A stretch of DNA of 64,000 nucleotides from Thermasporomyces composti (GTDB lineage: Bacteria; Actinomycetota; Actinomycetes; Propionibacteriales; Actinopolymorphaceae), in assembly GCF_003386795.1 (NCBI RefSeq), contig NZ_QTUC01000001.1, positions 248,001 through 312,000 on the forward strand, read 5' to 3'. The translations under genes were made by a program, and so were the position numbers. The notes under the pieces were generated by a model. The model did not search any database and was not told the DNA's origin. It saw nothing but the letters and a program-made list of their open reading frames with translations. Of the stretch, positions 57,516 through 64,000 are shown piece after piece. Numbering within the stretch: position 1 is the first letter of the stretch; each line of letters starts with the position of its first letter.

Positions 57516-57747
57516 GCCGCGGGTCACCCACGCCGACCCATCCGGCGGGGGCGGTGGCCTCACCAGCTCGGGACAGACCGGCGTCCGCACGCGGACGTCG
57601 ATCTAGAACGACACCTTTCCGGCATTACACTCCCCTGGCAGCTCGCCACGTGACAGGACGTCCTGGTCGGACAGCGGGACGCGGGGCGGGCCGACGAGCC
57701 GACAGGTGCGCGCCAACCTGGTGCGCCCGCGAGTGGAGCGAGGGCAC

Positions 57748-58728
57748 ATGGGCAAGCAGGCCACCGAACGGCGCACCTTGGGCCGCAGCGGCGTCGAGGT
57801 CACCTGCCTGAGCCTGGGGACCGCGCCGCTCGGCGGACTCTTCCGACACGTCGAGGACGACACGGCCATCGCGGTCGTGAAGGCGGCGCTCGACGCGGGG
57901 CTCAACTACATCGACACCGCACCGCTGTACGGCCACGGCGTCGCCGAGCGGCGGGTCGGGGCCGCGCTAGCCGCGGCAGGCGTCGAGCGTTCGTCGTACG
58001 TGCTGTCCACGAAGGTGGGCCGGCTCATCGTCGACAATCCCGCCGGCGACTCGGACGGCTACGCCGACGCGCCGCCGTCCGAAGCGATCTTCGACTTCAC
58101 CCCTGACGGGATCCGACGGTCGTTGGAGGAGAGCCTGGAGCGCCTCGGGCTCAGCGCGGTGGATGTGGTCTACATCCACGACCCCGATGACTACGAGGAG
58201 CAAGCGCTCAAGGTCGCCTACCCCGTGCTCCACGAGCTGCGCGAGCAAGGGGTGGTCAAAGCGATCGGCACGGGCATGAACCAGTCCCGGATCCCCACTC
58301 GTTTCGTGCGCGAGACCGACATCGATGTCGTCCTCCTCGCCGGTCGCTACACCCTGCTCGACCAGACCGGCGCGGCGGACCTGCTGCCCGCCTGCCTGGA
58401 GCGAGGTACCTCGATCGTCATCGGCGGCGTCTACAACTCGGGTCTGCTCGCCGACCCGCGTCCGGGCGCGACGTTCAACTACGCTCCCGCCCCACCCGAG
58501 CTCATCGCCCGGGCGCAGGAGCTGGAGCGCGTCTGCCAGGCCCACGACGTGCCGCTCAAGGCGGCCGCGATCCAGTTCCCCCTCGCCCACCCGGCGGTGG
58601 CGACCGTGCTGACCGGCGCCCGCGACGTCAGGGAGCTGACCGAGAACCTCGCGATGATGGAGTACGACATCCCCGACGCGCTGTGGGACGACCTGGCAGA
58701 GGTGGGGGTGCACCGCTATGGCCGCTGA
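57748..58728 (+). CDS. aldo/keto reductase, L-fucose dehydrogenase-like
   Basis: A 326-residue NAD(P)-dependent AKR. Visible are RTLGRSGVEVTCLSLGTAPLGG, the catalytic Asp and Tyr in YIDTAPLYGHGVAE, Lys in STKVGR, and His in YIHDPDD. The closest branch is D-threo-aldose 1-dehydrogenase/L-fucose dehydrogenase, oxidising the sugar to its 1,5-lactone. The ATG at 57748 has GAGG upstream and is favoured over a start 14 codons earlier. It overlaps the next gene by 11 bases, and that gene encodes a lactonase-type amidohydrolase, which fits the predicted product. Confidence 0.88.
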   Translation: MGKQATERRTLGRSGVEVTCLSLGTAPLGGLFRHVEDDTAIAVVKAALDAGLNYIDTAPLYGHGVAERRVGAALAAAGVERSSYVLSTKVGRLIVDNPAGDSDGYADAPPSEAIFDFTPDGIRRSLEESLERLGLSAVDVVYIHDPDDYEEQALKVAYPVLHELREQGVVKAIGTGMNQSRIPTRFVRETDIDVVLLAGRYTLLDQTGAADLLPACLERGTSIVIGGVYNSGLLADPRPGATFNYAPAPPELIARAQELERVCQAHDVPLKAAAIQFPLAHPAVATVLTGARDVRELTENLAMMEYDIPDALWDDLAEVGVHRYGR

Positions 58729-59662
58729 GGAGGGCCGCCCCGCCCCGGCACAGCCATCCAACACCTCCTCGGCTGAGGAACCGGACGCCACACCACCGAG
58801 CTCAGCTCGGGGCGACGCCGGGCGGGTCGACGCCCACCATCACGTGTGGGACCTGTCCGTGCGGCCGGAACCCTGGATCACCGGGGACGCCATGGCGCCG
58901 ATCGCCCGCACCTTCACCGTGGACGACCTCGCGCCGCACGCCGCCGCGGCTGGCGTGACCACCACCGTGCTCGTCCAGACGGTGAGCGAGATCGACCAGA
59001 CTCGCGACTTCCTGGCCTTGGCGGCGAGCTCCGATCTGGTGGGCGCGGTCACCGGATGGGTGGACCTCACCTCGCCCTCCGTGGCCGACGACCTCGCCGC
59101 GCTGCGGGACGCTCCAGGCGGTGAATACCTCCGGGCGATCCGCCACGGGGTGCAGAGCGAGCCCGACCCGGCGTGGTTGTGCCGGCCCGACGTCCGACGC
59201 GGTCTTCGGGCGGTCGCCAACGCGGGTCTTCGGTACGAGCTGCTGACCTACCCCGTCCAGCTGCCAGCGGTCTTGTCCACGGTCGCCGACCTGCCGGAGC
59301 TGTCGTTCGTCCTCGACCACTGCTCCAAACCCGCGATCGCCGCCGGCCAGATGCATCCGTGGGCCGACCAGATCCGCGAGCTGGCCCGCCTGCCGAACGT
59401 CACCTGCAAGCTGTCCGGTCTGGTCACCGAGGCGGACTGGGCGACGTGGGACGTCGCCACGTTACGCCCGTACGTCGAGGTGGTGCTCGAAGCGTTCGGG
59501 CCCGAGCGAGTGATGTTCGGCTCCGACTGGCCGGTGTGCCTGCTCGCCTCGTCCTACGCGGACTGGGTCGCGGCGGCGGAGGAGCTGACCGCCCACCTGT
59601 CCGAAGCCGAGCGGGCCGCGATCTTCGGTGGCACCGCTCGACGCTTCTACGACCTCGCCTGA
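58718..59662 (+). CDS. amidohydrolase family 2, L-fuconolactonase-like
   Basis: A 314-residue TIM-barrel hydrolase. Metal-binding HHH is in VDAHHHVWDLS, a later His lies in VLDHCSKPAI, and the catalytic Asp/Trp are in MFGSDWPVCLL. This pattern is that of the COG3618 lactonase group (L-fuconolactonase, 4-sulfomuconolactonase). The first ~35 residues are a low-complexity extension. It is translationally coupled to the upstream AKR, so the pair probably converts a sugar (L-fucose or similar) to its acid. Confidence 0.88.
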   Translation: MAAEEGRPAPAQPSNTSSAEEPDATPPSSARGDAGRVDAHHHVWDLSVRPEPWITGDAMAPIARTFTVDDLAPHAAAAGVTTTVLVQTVSEIDQTRDFLALAASSDLVGAVTGWVDLTSPSVADDLAALRDAPGGEYLRAIRHGVQSEPDPAWLCRPDVRRGLRAVANAGLRYELLTYPVQLPAVLSTVADLPELSFVLDHCSKPAIAAGQMHPWADQIRELARLPNVTCKLSGLVTEADWATWDVATLRPYVEVVLEAFGPERVMFGSDWPVCLLASSYADWVAAAEELTAHLSEAERAAIFGGTARRFYDLA

Positions 59663-59771
59663 CCTCGCCGGCTCTCGCCCGTCGTCCCAGCGCGACGAGC
59701 GCCGAGGCAAGTCGTCCGCGAGGTGCTGACCCAGGCCACGTCTTCGACCACGGCGGTGCTAGAAACCGGCC

Positions 59772-61238
59772 ATGAGTTTGCGCATCGGCATCGCCGGCAT
59801 GTCCACCGAGTCCAGCACCTTCGCGCCCCACCGGACGACGCTCGACGACTTCCGCGTCGCGCGCGGTGCGGAGCTCGCAGACCGTTACCCGTTCCTCCGG
59901 GACTGGCGTCTGCCAGGACGGACGGACGTGGAGTTCGTCCCCCTCCTGCAGGCGTCGGCGCTCCCGGGCGGACAGGTGCTGCCCGAGGTCTACGACACGC
60001 TGGAGGCGGAGATCCTCGACCTGATTCGCGCCGCCGTCGCCGAGCGACCCTTCGATGGGTTCTACTTCGACATCCACGGCGCGATGGCGGTCGAGGGCCG
60101 GCGTGACGCCGAGGCCCGCCTAGCCCGACGCATCCGGGAGCTCGTCGGTCCCCGCTGTCTGATCTCGGCCTCGATGGACCTGCACGGACAGGTCTCGCGT
60201 GACCTCGTGGAGACAGTCGACCTCCTCACCGCGTACCGGACGGCGCCCCACATCGACTACCTCGAGACCCGCGAGCGGGCTGTTCGCACTCTCGTCCGCT
60301 GCCTCACCGAGGGCATCCGACCGGTGCGCGCGTGGGTGCGGGTGCCCGTGCTGCTGCCTGGGGAGAAGACGAGCACGCGGGTCGAACCGGCGCGGTCGAT
60401 CTACGCCACCCTCCCGGAGATCGAGCGTCAGCCGGGCGTCCTCGACGCGTCGTTGTGGGTCGGGTACGCCTGGGCGGACGAGCCGCGGTCCGCGGCCACC
60501 GTCGTGGTCTCCGGCACCGATCGGCAGGCCGTCACCGCGCACGCCGAGCGACTCGCCCGTGCGTGGTGGGATGCCCGGCACCAGTTCGAGTTCTGCGCGC
60601 CCGCCGGTCCCGCGGACTGGTGCGTCGCTCAGGCGCTCGCCTCCGACCAGCGCCCCTTCTTCATCAGCGACTCCGGCGACAACCCGACCGGTGGTGGCTC
60701 GAACGACGTGGCCTGGTTCCTCGGCCACTTGCTCGCCACGCCGCAGCTGGCCTCCGGCGAGCGGACGGCGATCTGGGCCAGCTGTGTCGCTCCCGACGCG
60801 GTCCGCGCCTGCGTGCAGGCCGGTGTCGGCGGATCGGTGCGTGTCGAGGTCGGCGGCTGCTTCGGCGGGGGTGACCCGGTCACCGTCTCCGGCACGGTGA
60901 CCCACGTCGAGCACGCCGACCCTGTCGGCGGTGACATCGCCGTCGTGCGCTCCGGGGGCGTCCACGCCGTCCTCACCAGCCGCCGGAAGCCGTTCCACTA
61001 CGTCGCGGACCTGGAAAAGCTCGGACTTGACCCCGCGCAACACGACATCACAGCCGTGAAGATCGGCTATCTCCAGCCCGACCTCTACCAGGCCGCCAAG
61101 GGCTGGGTCCTCGCGTTGACTCCTGGCGGTGTCGACCAGGACCTGAACCGGCTCGAGTATCGGCACGTGCTGCGCCCCATCCATCCGCTCGACCCCGAGA
61201 TGGCCGAGCCCGACCTGTCCGCGGTGCTCTTCGGCTAA
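59772..61238 (+). CDS. M81-family metallopeptidase (MlrC-like)
   Basis: A 488-residue enzyme of the M81 family, named after microcystinase MlrC. The family is recognisable from GIAGMSTESSTFAPHRTTLDDF at the start, FDIHGAMAVEG (metal-binding Asp/His), RTAPHIDYLETRERAVR, and SDSGDNPTGGGSNDVAWFL in the second domain. Most members in soil actinobacteria have unknown substrates and lie near sugar or amino-acid ABC genes, as here. It lies 109 bases after the lactonase gene and 235 bases before an ABC operon on the same strand. Confidence 0.88.
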   Translation: MSLRIGIAGMSTESSTFAPHRTTLDDFRVARGAELADRYPFLRDWRLPGRTDVEFVPLLQASALPGGQVLPEVYDTLEAEILDLIRAAVAERPFDGFYFDIHGAMAVEGRRDAEARLARRIRELVGPRCLISASMDLHGQVSRDLVETVDLLTAYRTAPHIDYLETRERAVRTLVRCLTEGIRPVRAWVRVPVLLPGEKTSTRVEPARSIYATLPEIERQPGVLDASLWVGYAWADEPRSAATVVVSGTDRQAVTAHAERLARAWWDARHQFEFCAPAGPADWCVAQALASDQRPFFISDSGDNPTGGGSNDVAWFLGHLLATPQLASGERTAIWASCVAPDAVRACVQAGVGGSVRVEVGGCFGGGDPVTVSGTVTHVEHADPVGGDIAVVRSGGVHAVLTSRRKPFHYVADLEKLGLDPAQHDITAVKIGYLQPDLYQAAKGWVLALTPGGVDQDLNRLEYRHVLRPIHPLDPEMAEPDLSAVLFG

Positions 61239-61473: not shown

Positions 61474-62220
61474 ATGGTCGGACTGAGGCTGGAAAGCCTC
61501 CGCGTCGCTGGGGTGTGCCCGGAGCTGACCCTCGACGTGCCCGTCGGCGTGATCCGCGCAGCGGTCGTCAGCGACCAGGCCGCCGTCCACGCGCTCGCCA
61601 ACGCCGTCGTCGGCCTGGACCGCACTCAATCAGCCGGTCGAGTCCTCGTCGATGGCGTGGACGTCTGGCAGCAGCACGTCGACCACCGCAGACGTCGGCG
61701 GCACCGCACGGGTCGGCACTGCCCGGTCCGGCTGGTGCCAGCGGCTGGGGGCCTTGTGCCGGGAATCACCGTCGCCGAGAACATGTGGCGGCTCCGATGC
61801 CCGACCGCCCGGGTGTCGAAGGCGTTGGGAACGGTGATGACCCAGGAGGTCGCCGCCACGCTCGACATGGCGGACCTGCTCGACCGTCGTCCCGAGCACC
61901 TCAGCGCCAACGAGCGCCGACTCGCCGGCCTGGCGCTGGCCCTGTGCTGGGAGCCGATCGCCATCGTCATCGAGGACACACCCGACCACCCGACCTGGCA
62001 CGCGGTTCTGGAAGAGCCCCGGCGCCGTCGGGTGCCCTCGGCCGAGCTGACGTCGTCCAAGGCCGAAGCGGTGCTCGCCAACGTCGCGGTGCTCGTCATC
62101 ACGACCGATGCCGCCAGGGTGTGGCAGCTGGACCACGATCCGGTGTGGCTCGAACCAAACCTGGTAACGGTCGGACGCTCGGCGGCGACGTCCTCCACCG
62201 GGAGGGCCGACGATGCGTAG
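61474..62220 (+). CDS. degenerate ABC-ATPase-like protein without Walker A
   Basis: A 248-residue protein that follows the ABC-ATPase layout but lacks catalytic motifs. The N-terminal strand LTLDVPVGVIRAAVV is followed not by GxxGxGKS but by SDQAAVHA, then VVGLDRTQSAGRVLVDGVDVW as in true ATPases. The signature is LSANERRLAGLALAL instead of LSGGQ, and the Walker B position reads IVIEDTPDHP without the Asp-Glu pair. ATP hydrolysis is thus improbable. The stop overlaps the binding-protein gene by eight bases, so it belongs to a transporter operon. No frameshift is seen that would restore the motifs. Role unknown: perhaps a structural or regulatory subunit. Confidence 0.75.
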   Translation: MVGLRLESLRVAGVCPELTLDVPVGVIRAAVVSDQAAVHALANAVVGLDRTQSAGRVLVDGVDVWQQHVDHRRRRRHRTGRHCPVRLVPAAGGLVPGITVAENMWRLRCPTARVSKALGTVMTQEVAATLDMADLLDRRPEHLSANERRLAGLALALCWEPIAIVIEDTPDHPTWHAVLEEPRRRRVPSAELTSSKAEAVLANVAVLVITTDAARVWQLDHDPVWLEPNLVTVGRSAATSSTGRADDA

Positions 62221-63649
62221 CGTGCCTCGAGGCCAGTCGGGCGCTGGACGGCTTCGCCGGCGGGCGGTCTTAGCCGGGCTCCTGTCGGTCAGCGTGCCTC
62301 TCCCCGCGTGCTCGGCGGCCGGCGCACTGCTCGCCGATCGGCCGACCGTGCGGGTCGCGGTGACGTGGAGCGCCGCCGAGCTGTCGTTGTTCCGTCGGGT
62401 GATCGACGACCTGCGTCGCCTCCCCGGGGAGATGGCCTATGACGTCGACATCCTCCCCTACGGCGACGACATCTCGGCGGCCCTGGCGACCCGCGGCGCC
62501 GGCCGGCCAGACGTCGTCCTGCTGCCCCGGCCGGGCCTCGTCGCCGAGCACCTCGACGCTCTGGCACCGTTGCCCGCTGAGAGCTGGCCAGCGCCCGACA
62601 CCTACCCACCGGTGTGGCGGTCGCTGCTCTTCCATCGACATCCCCAGACCGGGGAGCAAGTCCCCTATGGCCTGCCGTTCAAGGTCGCCCACAAGTCCTT
62701 GGTGTGGTATCGGCCGTGCCAGTTCGAGCGTCTCGGTCTGCAACCCCCGCAGACCTGGTCGGACTGGCTCGCCCTCAACACCGAGCTGAGCCGGCAGGGG
62801 ATCCCCGCGTTGGCACTCGGTGGCGGGGACGGCTGGATGCTCACCGACTTCTTCGAGAACGTTCTCCTCGGACACTCCCCCTGCACCTACGACGCGCTCA
62901 GCGGGCCAGCGCCACGCCCGTGGCACGTGCCCGCCGTCCGAGAGGCGTTCCGTTCACTCGGTCAGATGTGGAGCACGCCCGGCGTGGTGGCGGGAGGGGT
63001 ACGTCGGGCGCTCGTCCAGCAGTTCTCGGACGCGGTGCTGGAGGTCTTCCGCTACCACCGCGCCGCGATGGTCGTGGCGCCCGACTTCGCCTGGCCGATC
63101 ATCGAGAGGTTCGGCATCGACCCCGACGGCTGTGACAACCCGGTCGGCACCTTCGCGTTCCCTCCCCCGCGCCGAGGCCAACCGCCGCTCGTCGCCGGAG
63201 GCGACGTCGTGGTGCTGACTCGACCAGCCCGGCCCGAGGCGCGGGACCTCCTCACCCGACTGGTCGACTCGCGAGCGGTCACGAGCTGGATCAGGGCCGG
63301 CGGCTTCGTCTCCCCCGACCTCACCGTGCCCGAGCGGCTGTACCCACCGGACATGCGTCCGGTCGTCCGCCAGCTTGTCAACGAACCGTTCCGCTTCGAC
63401 CTCTCCGACCAGATCGGGGCCGTCGGCGGCCAGGAGGGCCTCTGGCGGGTTCTCCAGCAGTTCCTGACGCGGGTGGGCGACCGGGATACGGCCGCAGTCG
63501 ACGTCGCCGCCGACGAGGCTGTCGCGCAGCTCCTCGCTCTGGAGGACGCCACCGTCGGTCGCGACGTGTCGTCGACGTGGGCGAGGCTGCGCGCCAGCTC
63601 CGCCGAACAGGTCGACCTGTGCGAACCAGGAGCCGGCGATGGCGGTTGA
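62213..63649 (+). CDS. extracellular solute-binding lipoprotein of sugar ABC transporter
   Basis: A 478-residue binding protein (SBP_bac_1 type). The N-terminus has a twin Arg region (RLRRRAVLAGLL) and lipobox LPAC (about residue 33), so it could be a Tat-exported lipoprotein. The mature part begins TVRVAVTWSAAELSLFRRV and includes YGLPFKVAHKSLVWYRPCQFERLGLQPPQTWSDWLAL, split over the typical hinge pattern. Such proteins bind oligosaccharides. It overlaps the pseudo-ATPase gene and the permease gene by 8 and 11 bases. Confidence 0.87.
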   Translation: MRSVPRGQSGAGRLRRRAVLAGLLSVSVPLPACSAAGALLADRPTVRVAVTWSAAELSLFRRVIDDLRRLPGEMAYDVDILPYGDDISAALATRGAGRPDVVLLPRPGLVAEHLDALAPLPAESWPAPDTYPPVWRSLLFHRHPQTGEQVPYGLPFKVAHKSLVWYRPCQFERLGLQPPQTWSDWLALNTELSRQGIPALALGGGDGWMLTDFFENVLLGHSPCTYDALSGPAPRPWHVPAVREAFRSLGQMWSTPGVVAGGVRRALVQQFSDAVLEVFRYHRAAMVVAPDFAWPIIERFGIDPDGCDNPVGTFAFPPPRRGQPPLVAGGDVVVLTRPARPEARDLLTRLVDSRAVTSWIRAGGFVSPDLTVPERLYPPDMRPVVRQLVNEPFRFDLSDQIGAVGGQEGLWRVLQQFLTRVGDRDTAAVDVAADEAVAQLLALEDATVGRDVSSTWARLRASSAEQVDLCEPGAGDGG

Positions 63650-64000
63650 GAGCCACCGCGGCCTGCGCCTGGAAGTCACCAGTCGTCCGATGAGCGGACG
63701 GCTGGTACCCGGACGGCCGCCCCGCAAGATCGGCCGGTACCTGCTCGGTCTTCCGGCCGCGACCCTGGTCCTCCTGCTGGTCACACCCATGCTGCGAACG
63801 CTCGTGTGGGCGTTCCGGGAGGATGGGTCGTGGACGCTGCGCCACCTCGTCGGCGTCCTGGCCGACGGCGCGACCCAGCGCGCGTTGCTGCACACCCTCG
63901 CCTGGGTCGGCATCGCCGCCGGCTTGGTCGTCGTCTCCTTCTTGCTGGCGTTGGCCAGCCTGCGCTTCGAGCGCTGGGGCACCGCGTTCATGGGCGTGCT
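63639..64000 (+). CDS. sugar ABC transporter permease, cut by window edge
   Basis: An open frame from the ATG at 63639 to the window edge (120 codons visible). After a ~30-residue basic N-terminus it has a first helix (GRYLLGLPAATLVLLLVTPMLR) and a second (TLAWVGIAAGLVVVSFLLALASL) with the MalF-type GSWTLRHLVGVL loop. It is the first permease of the operon; a second and the true ATPase, if any, would lie beyond the edge. Confidence 0.82.
   Translation, partial: MAVESHRGLRLEVTSRPMSGRLVPGRPPRKIGRYLLGLPAATLVLLLVTPMLRTLVWAFREDGSWTLRHLVGVLADGATQRALLHTLAWVGIAAGLVVVSFLLALASLRFERWGTAFMGV

Follow-up and report, generated by a model that had tools for sequence, protein, structure and literature searches.

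What can a sugar-importer operon do when the only ATPase that it encodes has lost its catalytic motifs? ABC importers are pumps that require at least one working ATP site, and the question is raised by a gene at 61474..62220 on the forward strand of the window (the whole 64,000-nucleotide stretch of Thermasporomyces composti DNA analysed here, from a host genome of 4.37 Mb in one contig). The boundaries of this open reading frame are exact, its GC3 is 0.87, and its 248-amino-acid product had been described in an earlier note, made from the sequence alone, as an ABC-ATPase-like protein. A single-sequence Pfam search gave 21 bits for PF00005, below the cut-off of 25, so automatic annotation likely misses the protein or labels it an ordinary ATPase. 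By hhalign, a 20-member profile of the protein matched the MsiK encoded in the same genome (97.6%; E 3e-12), with the former P-loop aligned without gaps; MsiK is also the closest NBD by sequence within the host genome. Profile matches in the PDB were to MalK-type and other NBDs (E down to 6e-14). Structure prediction of the protein alone, which the earlier note had proposed, gave a confident ABC NBD fold (AlphaFold2; pLDDT 83.6, pTM 0.81), for which the best Foldseek matches in the PDB were the ABC ATPases OppD, MlaF, and MalK (E about 1e-11 to 1e-10). As judged by profile and predicted fold, the protein is clearly an ABC NBD homologue, as first proposed; we refer to it as the dead NBD.

The catalytic sites of the dead NBD were read in an alignment of 20 orthologues from two families, with the register taken from hhalign to MsiK (all coordinates on the forward strand). 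The former P-loop, SDQAAVHA, occupies residues 33 to 40 (61570..61593) and places Val38 at the Lys position; Walker A (GxxGxGKS/T) was absent from all 20 aligned orthologues. At the former ABC signature (residues 143 to 147; 61900..61914), the window protein reads LSANE instead of LSGGQ, and the orthologues are variable: position 2 is S or T in 19 of 20, and positions 3 to 5 are not conserved. The Walker B site reads IED (residues 166 to 168). These three motif sites are thus as originally claimed. Neither the ordered Walker B pair DE nor the H-switch His was found in any of the 20 orthologues, all of which carry ED at the former acidic pair (residues 167 and 168; 61972..61977) and TT at residues 210 and 211 (62101..62106), where Thr211 replaces the His. 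The further claim that the D-loop region had been kept was wrong, since SALD is replaced by PTW (residues 173 to 175; 61990..61998), again in 20 of 20. Codons at these invariant altered sites vary synonymously, the single-codon Trp excepted.

Compared to CUT1 ATPases of the MsiK/MalK/UgpC/SugC type, the dead NBD therefore has a homologous fold and the same order of elements but lacks the Walker A, signature, Walker B, D-loop, and H-switch residues as well as the C-terminal regulatory domain, and it carries the Walker B acids in reversed order. It keeps a groove block formed by the Q-loop and coupling-helix region (residues 85 to 106; 61726..61791, placed by alignment and block constraint), in which the Q is replaced and the residues around GGL-P-hlT--N match LYPHLSVAEN of MalK. 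Charge is also reversed relative to these ATPases at the site of MalK Arg47: opposite the corresponding Arg of MsiK, 18 of 20 orthologues have an acidic residue (Asp or Glu) and two have Asn, namely the window protein (Asn43, codon 61600..61602, placed by alignment and the hhalign register) and that of Actinopolymorpha alba.

Loss of every catalytic motif is what a pseudogene or decaying allele without function might show, and the earlier note had named two results that would point to decay: orthologues with intact Walker motifs and a dN/dS near 1. We found neither. No orthologue had intact Walker motifs, and the degenerate sites were conserved. In close pairs, dN/dS of the dead NBD (NG86) ranged from 0.08 to 0.40 (0.08 to 0.18 in the closest Kribbella pairs and 0.26 to 0.40 in close Actinopolymorpha pairs), values similar to those of the binding protein encoded next to it. 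Because the altered motifs are invariant in the 20 orthologues and dN/dS is far below 1, the altered sites are under purifying selection, and the loss is not the accident of one strain. Constraint was distributed unevenly along the protein. The groove block was the most constrained (pN/pS of 0.09 in both groups), and the former P-loop stretch was relaxed in Kribbella (pN/pS of 0.55). A tight groove with a relaxed P-loop is the pattern that would be expected if nucleotide binding were gone and docking kept. Decay could claim the faster P-loop stretch in Kribbella and the split fourth gene of the window genome described below; set against an open reading frame intact in 32 of 32 genomes, invariant altered motifs, and dN/dS well below 1, it is very improbable. 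Decay is refuted for the family, while recent decay within the window strain alone is possible. The proposal that a catalytically dead homologue has been retained in the operon is thus strongly supported.

The dead NBD gene comes first in a cassette of four genes and is a constant member of it; the other three encode a binding lipoprotein, a fused double permease, and a membrane-anchored TPR protein. Coupling by overlapping ends to a binding protein and a permease had been noted before and is confirmed, with an 8-nucleotide overlap between the first and second genes and an 11-nucleotide overlap between the second and third. The description of the permease needs amending, however, since it is a fused double permease that exceeds the window. 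The lipoprotein gene lies at 62213..63649 on the forward strand (478 amino acids, from its open reading frame and Pfam), and its product is a MalE-like binding protein (SBP_bac_1, 35.9 bits, above the cut-off). The permease gene (592 amino acids, forward strand) starts at 63639, runs to the end of the window at 64000, and continues to 65417. The remainder was followed in locus L034 (genome positions 308001 to 325000, for which window position equals L034 position plus 60000). The fourth gene lies at L034:5420-8351 (65420 to 68351 in window numbering, beyond the window), and its product combines a TM hairpin, an NTPase-like region, and TPR repeats. The gene is one open frame in the Actinopolymorpha relatives; in the window genome it lies in two frames, with an apparent single-base frameshift near L034:6195. 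The Actinopolymorphaceae versions (loci L035 to L040) carry an AAA/STAND-like NTPase region with the P-loop Lys changed to Ser or Thr (GPPGSGSS, GEPGTGTS), and the region is absent from the Kribbella versions. Judging from these motifs, the Actinopolymorphaceae TPR protein is a putative second dead NTPase of the cassette. A PADLOC search returned no defence match.

Distribution across genomes ties the dead NBD to the fused permease. Among 98 related genomes, in which the fused permease was called at E <= 1e-60, the same 32 had both genes (7 of the same family and 25 Kribbella-like), and the other 66 had neither, one weak NBD match aside. That match (6.5e-16, in G062, which has no fused permease) is probably to an ordinary NBD. 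Each of the 21 named genomes of Actinopolymorpha and Kribbella that an independent scan brought up has all four cassette genes. Outside the order, the full cassette occurs in G391, where the NBD is without the motifs and retains E-D. Two other genomes outside the order, G198 and G426 (loci L158 and L157), encode the binding protein, the fused permease, and the TPR protein with no adjoining dead NBD, and a profile search for a dead NBD elsewhere in these two genomes gave weak matches, no stronger than other NBDs give. The permease tree unites the fused family in one clade and nests G198 and G426 on the Actinopolymorphaceae side (87/79). Absence through loss is likelier than late gain, a conclusion that we draw cautiously because G391, G198, and G426 are long branches; the two cassettes were possibly transferred and then reduced. 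Since G198 and G426 keep the remaining three genes, the dead NBD is not always needed.

The permease itself departs from ordinary importers where an NBD would dock. For comparison, 30 ordinary permease domains were chosen from the host genome, and the EAA position was read by alignment without presupposing an acidic residue. An acidic residue (Glu or Asp) fills this position in 28 of the 30 domains and a basic one in none, and the DG is present in 30 of 30. In half 1 of the fused permease, all 23 members carry Arg instead of the EAA-loop Glu, and Arg also stands at this site in G198 and G426; in half 2, the Glu is lost and the loop is shortened or collapsed. The Asp of the motif is also replaced in the fused family (by His, Gln, or Glu), and neither half carries the EAA loop (EAA--DG) of a CUT1 importer. 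In the BPD_transp_1 test, half 1 was borderline (26.1 to 30.6 bits for a cut-off of 26.4); half 2 was matched, weakly, by GlcU-type models alone, and the fused-family profile matches split permeases. A structural model of the permease (A. alba copy, 21 rows) was too poor to use (pLDDT 51, pTM 0.46), and the C-terminal tails of second permeases were set aside as a diagnostic, being too variable among ordinary permeases.

In the maltose transporter, MalK Arg47 contacts the EAA Glu, a contact for which our literature search brought no confirmation. If it holds, the docking charge pair appears to be reversed in the cassette, with permease Glu changed to Arg and NBD Arg changed to Asp or Glu. Such a reversal, if real, argues for direct docking of the dead NBD on permease half 1. 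The Asn of the window protein counts against it in the window copy.

Where the dead NBD came from is suggested by the nearest canonical systems, in which the permeases are split and the EAA loops intact. One of them, at locus L181, is an operon of ATPase, binding protein, permease, and permease on the same strand and in cassette-like order, and the ATPase in its first position is intact, MalK-like, and 48% identical to MsiK. A similar ATPase lies near the canonical system of L183 on the opposite strand, and canonical operons in Streptomyces-like genomes have no ATPase beside them. The likeliest ancestor of the dead NBD is a dedicated MalK-like ATPase that served a CUT1-type importer. An intact MsiK is encoded elsewhere in the host genome, and the cassette itself has no intact NBD. 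TAP, TM287/288, and TmrAB likewise have degenerate NBD motifs that are kept by selection, but each of those complexes contains a partner NBD and retains one consensus site, whereas the cassette encodes no partner and its NBD has lost both Walker A and the signature. One ATPase is commonly shared among CUT1 importers (PMC7658222). DasABC-MsiK and AraNPQ-MsmX are, like the cassette, encoded by operons of binding protein and permease genes with no working dedicated ATPase, and this is also the arrangement of the closest canonical relatives from Streptomyces-like genomes. The ATPase-sharing importers, however, keep canonical EAA loops and have no dead NBD, whereas the cassette permease is fused and altered in both loops.

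The earlier note had offered the dead homologue as a structural or regulatory subunit or as an adaptor for the shared ATPase. The former is the best reading. An adaptor is possible but less likely, because both halves have lost EAA-loop features that other sugar-type permeases of the genome retain and there is no conserved signature to complete an MsiK ATP site. Our leading explanation, in which we place about even confidence, is that the dead NBD is a conserved pseudo-NBD bound to a permease that has adapted along with it, within a complex that derives from an importer, is probably uncoupled from ATP, and may work as a sensor or scaffold and not as a pump. Under this explanation, the dead NBD would dock on the coupling helix of permease half 1, a placement that we favour because no part of the dead NBD is more conserved than the docking block and because the charges of the docking pair appear to have been swapped. 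With less certainty, the complex may no longer be ATP driven, and ligand on the lipoprotein may change the assembly of permease and pseudo-NBD; the conserved former ATP face (ED, PTW, and TT) and the TPR protein would relay that change inside the cell, and the role would perhaps be that of a sensor or scaffold. Fold and homology, the invariant altered sites, the low dN/dS, co-inheritance, the altered EAA loops, the mostly acidic residue at the Arg47 site, the L181 ATPase, and the degenerate NTPase of the TPR protein all support this explanation. Against it stand G198 and G426 without a dead NBD, the intact MsiK, the two-frame fourth gene, and the finding that an Ala substitution at the EAA Glu has a mild effect on known importers, in which the motif Asp matters more (PMC5730181). 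A bolder version, in which the whole family gave up ATP, lipoprotein, permease, pseudo-ATPase, and TPR protein together form a sensor or scaffold, docking was rebuilt by charge reversal, and the dead ATP face was turned into a new interface, is conceivable, but we lean against it.

Two alternatives would instead keep the complex working as an importer powered by the intact MsiK. An MsiK homodimer might drive the permease in the ordinary way, leaving the dead NBD as a separate regulator (a competitor for MsiK docking or a signalling partner). The G198 and G426 cassettes, which do without the dead NBD, and the strong constraint on the rest of the permease (dN/dS of about 0.04 to 0.14 in close pairs) would suit such an arrangement. 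Yet both EAA loops are unlike those of 30 of 30 ordinary permease domains, in G198 and G426 as well, and across the two main families permease and dead NBD are inherited together in 32 of 32 genomes; we regard this alternative as unlikely. It also seems improbable that MsiK and the dead NBD sit together on the two permease halves with MsiK alone hydrolyzing ATP, as in heterodimers with a degenerate site. That ATPases are commonly shared in CUT1 importers (PMC7658222) and that signature position 2 is so widely kept would favour such an asymmetric importer, but with no Walker A and with signature positions 3 to 5 unconserved, neither site of the mixed dimer would be of consensus type, and the half-2 EAA loop has collapsed.

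Degenerate NBDs in heterodimeric ABC proteins and the shared ATPases of CUT1 importers (PMC7658222) are already known. For an importer family in which the sole dedicated NBD is dead and the coupling loops have changed with it, we found no description in a non-exhaustive search of the open-licence literature, which is weak evidence of novelty. If our explanation is true, the cassette would show the conversion of a pump to a non-pump, with the sole dedicated motor dead, the permease changed alongside, and the whole kept vertically, and it would be a natural system that separates docking from ATP use.

The neighbouring genes, which differ between the two families, offered no hint of the ligand. 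Genes for an aldo-keto reductase, an amidohydrolase, and an M81 (MlrC) protein lie just upstream (window 57706 to 61238). These neighbours are kept in Actinopolymorphaceae; in Kribbella they are not, and the cassette there precedes a radA-like gene. Downstream, a gene for a CehA/McbA-family metallohydrolase (L034:8303-9829) is conserved in Actinopolymorphaceae.
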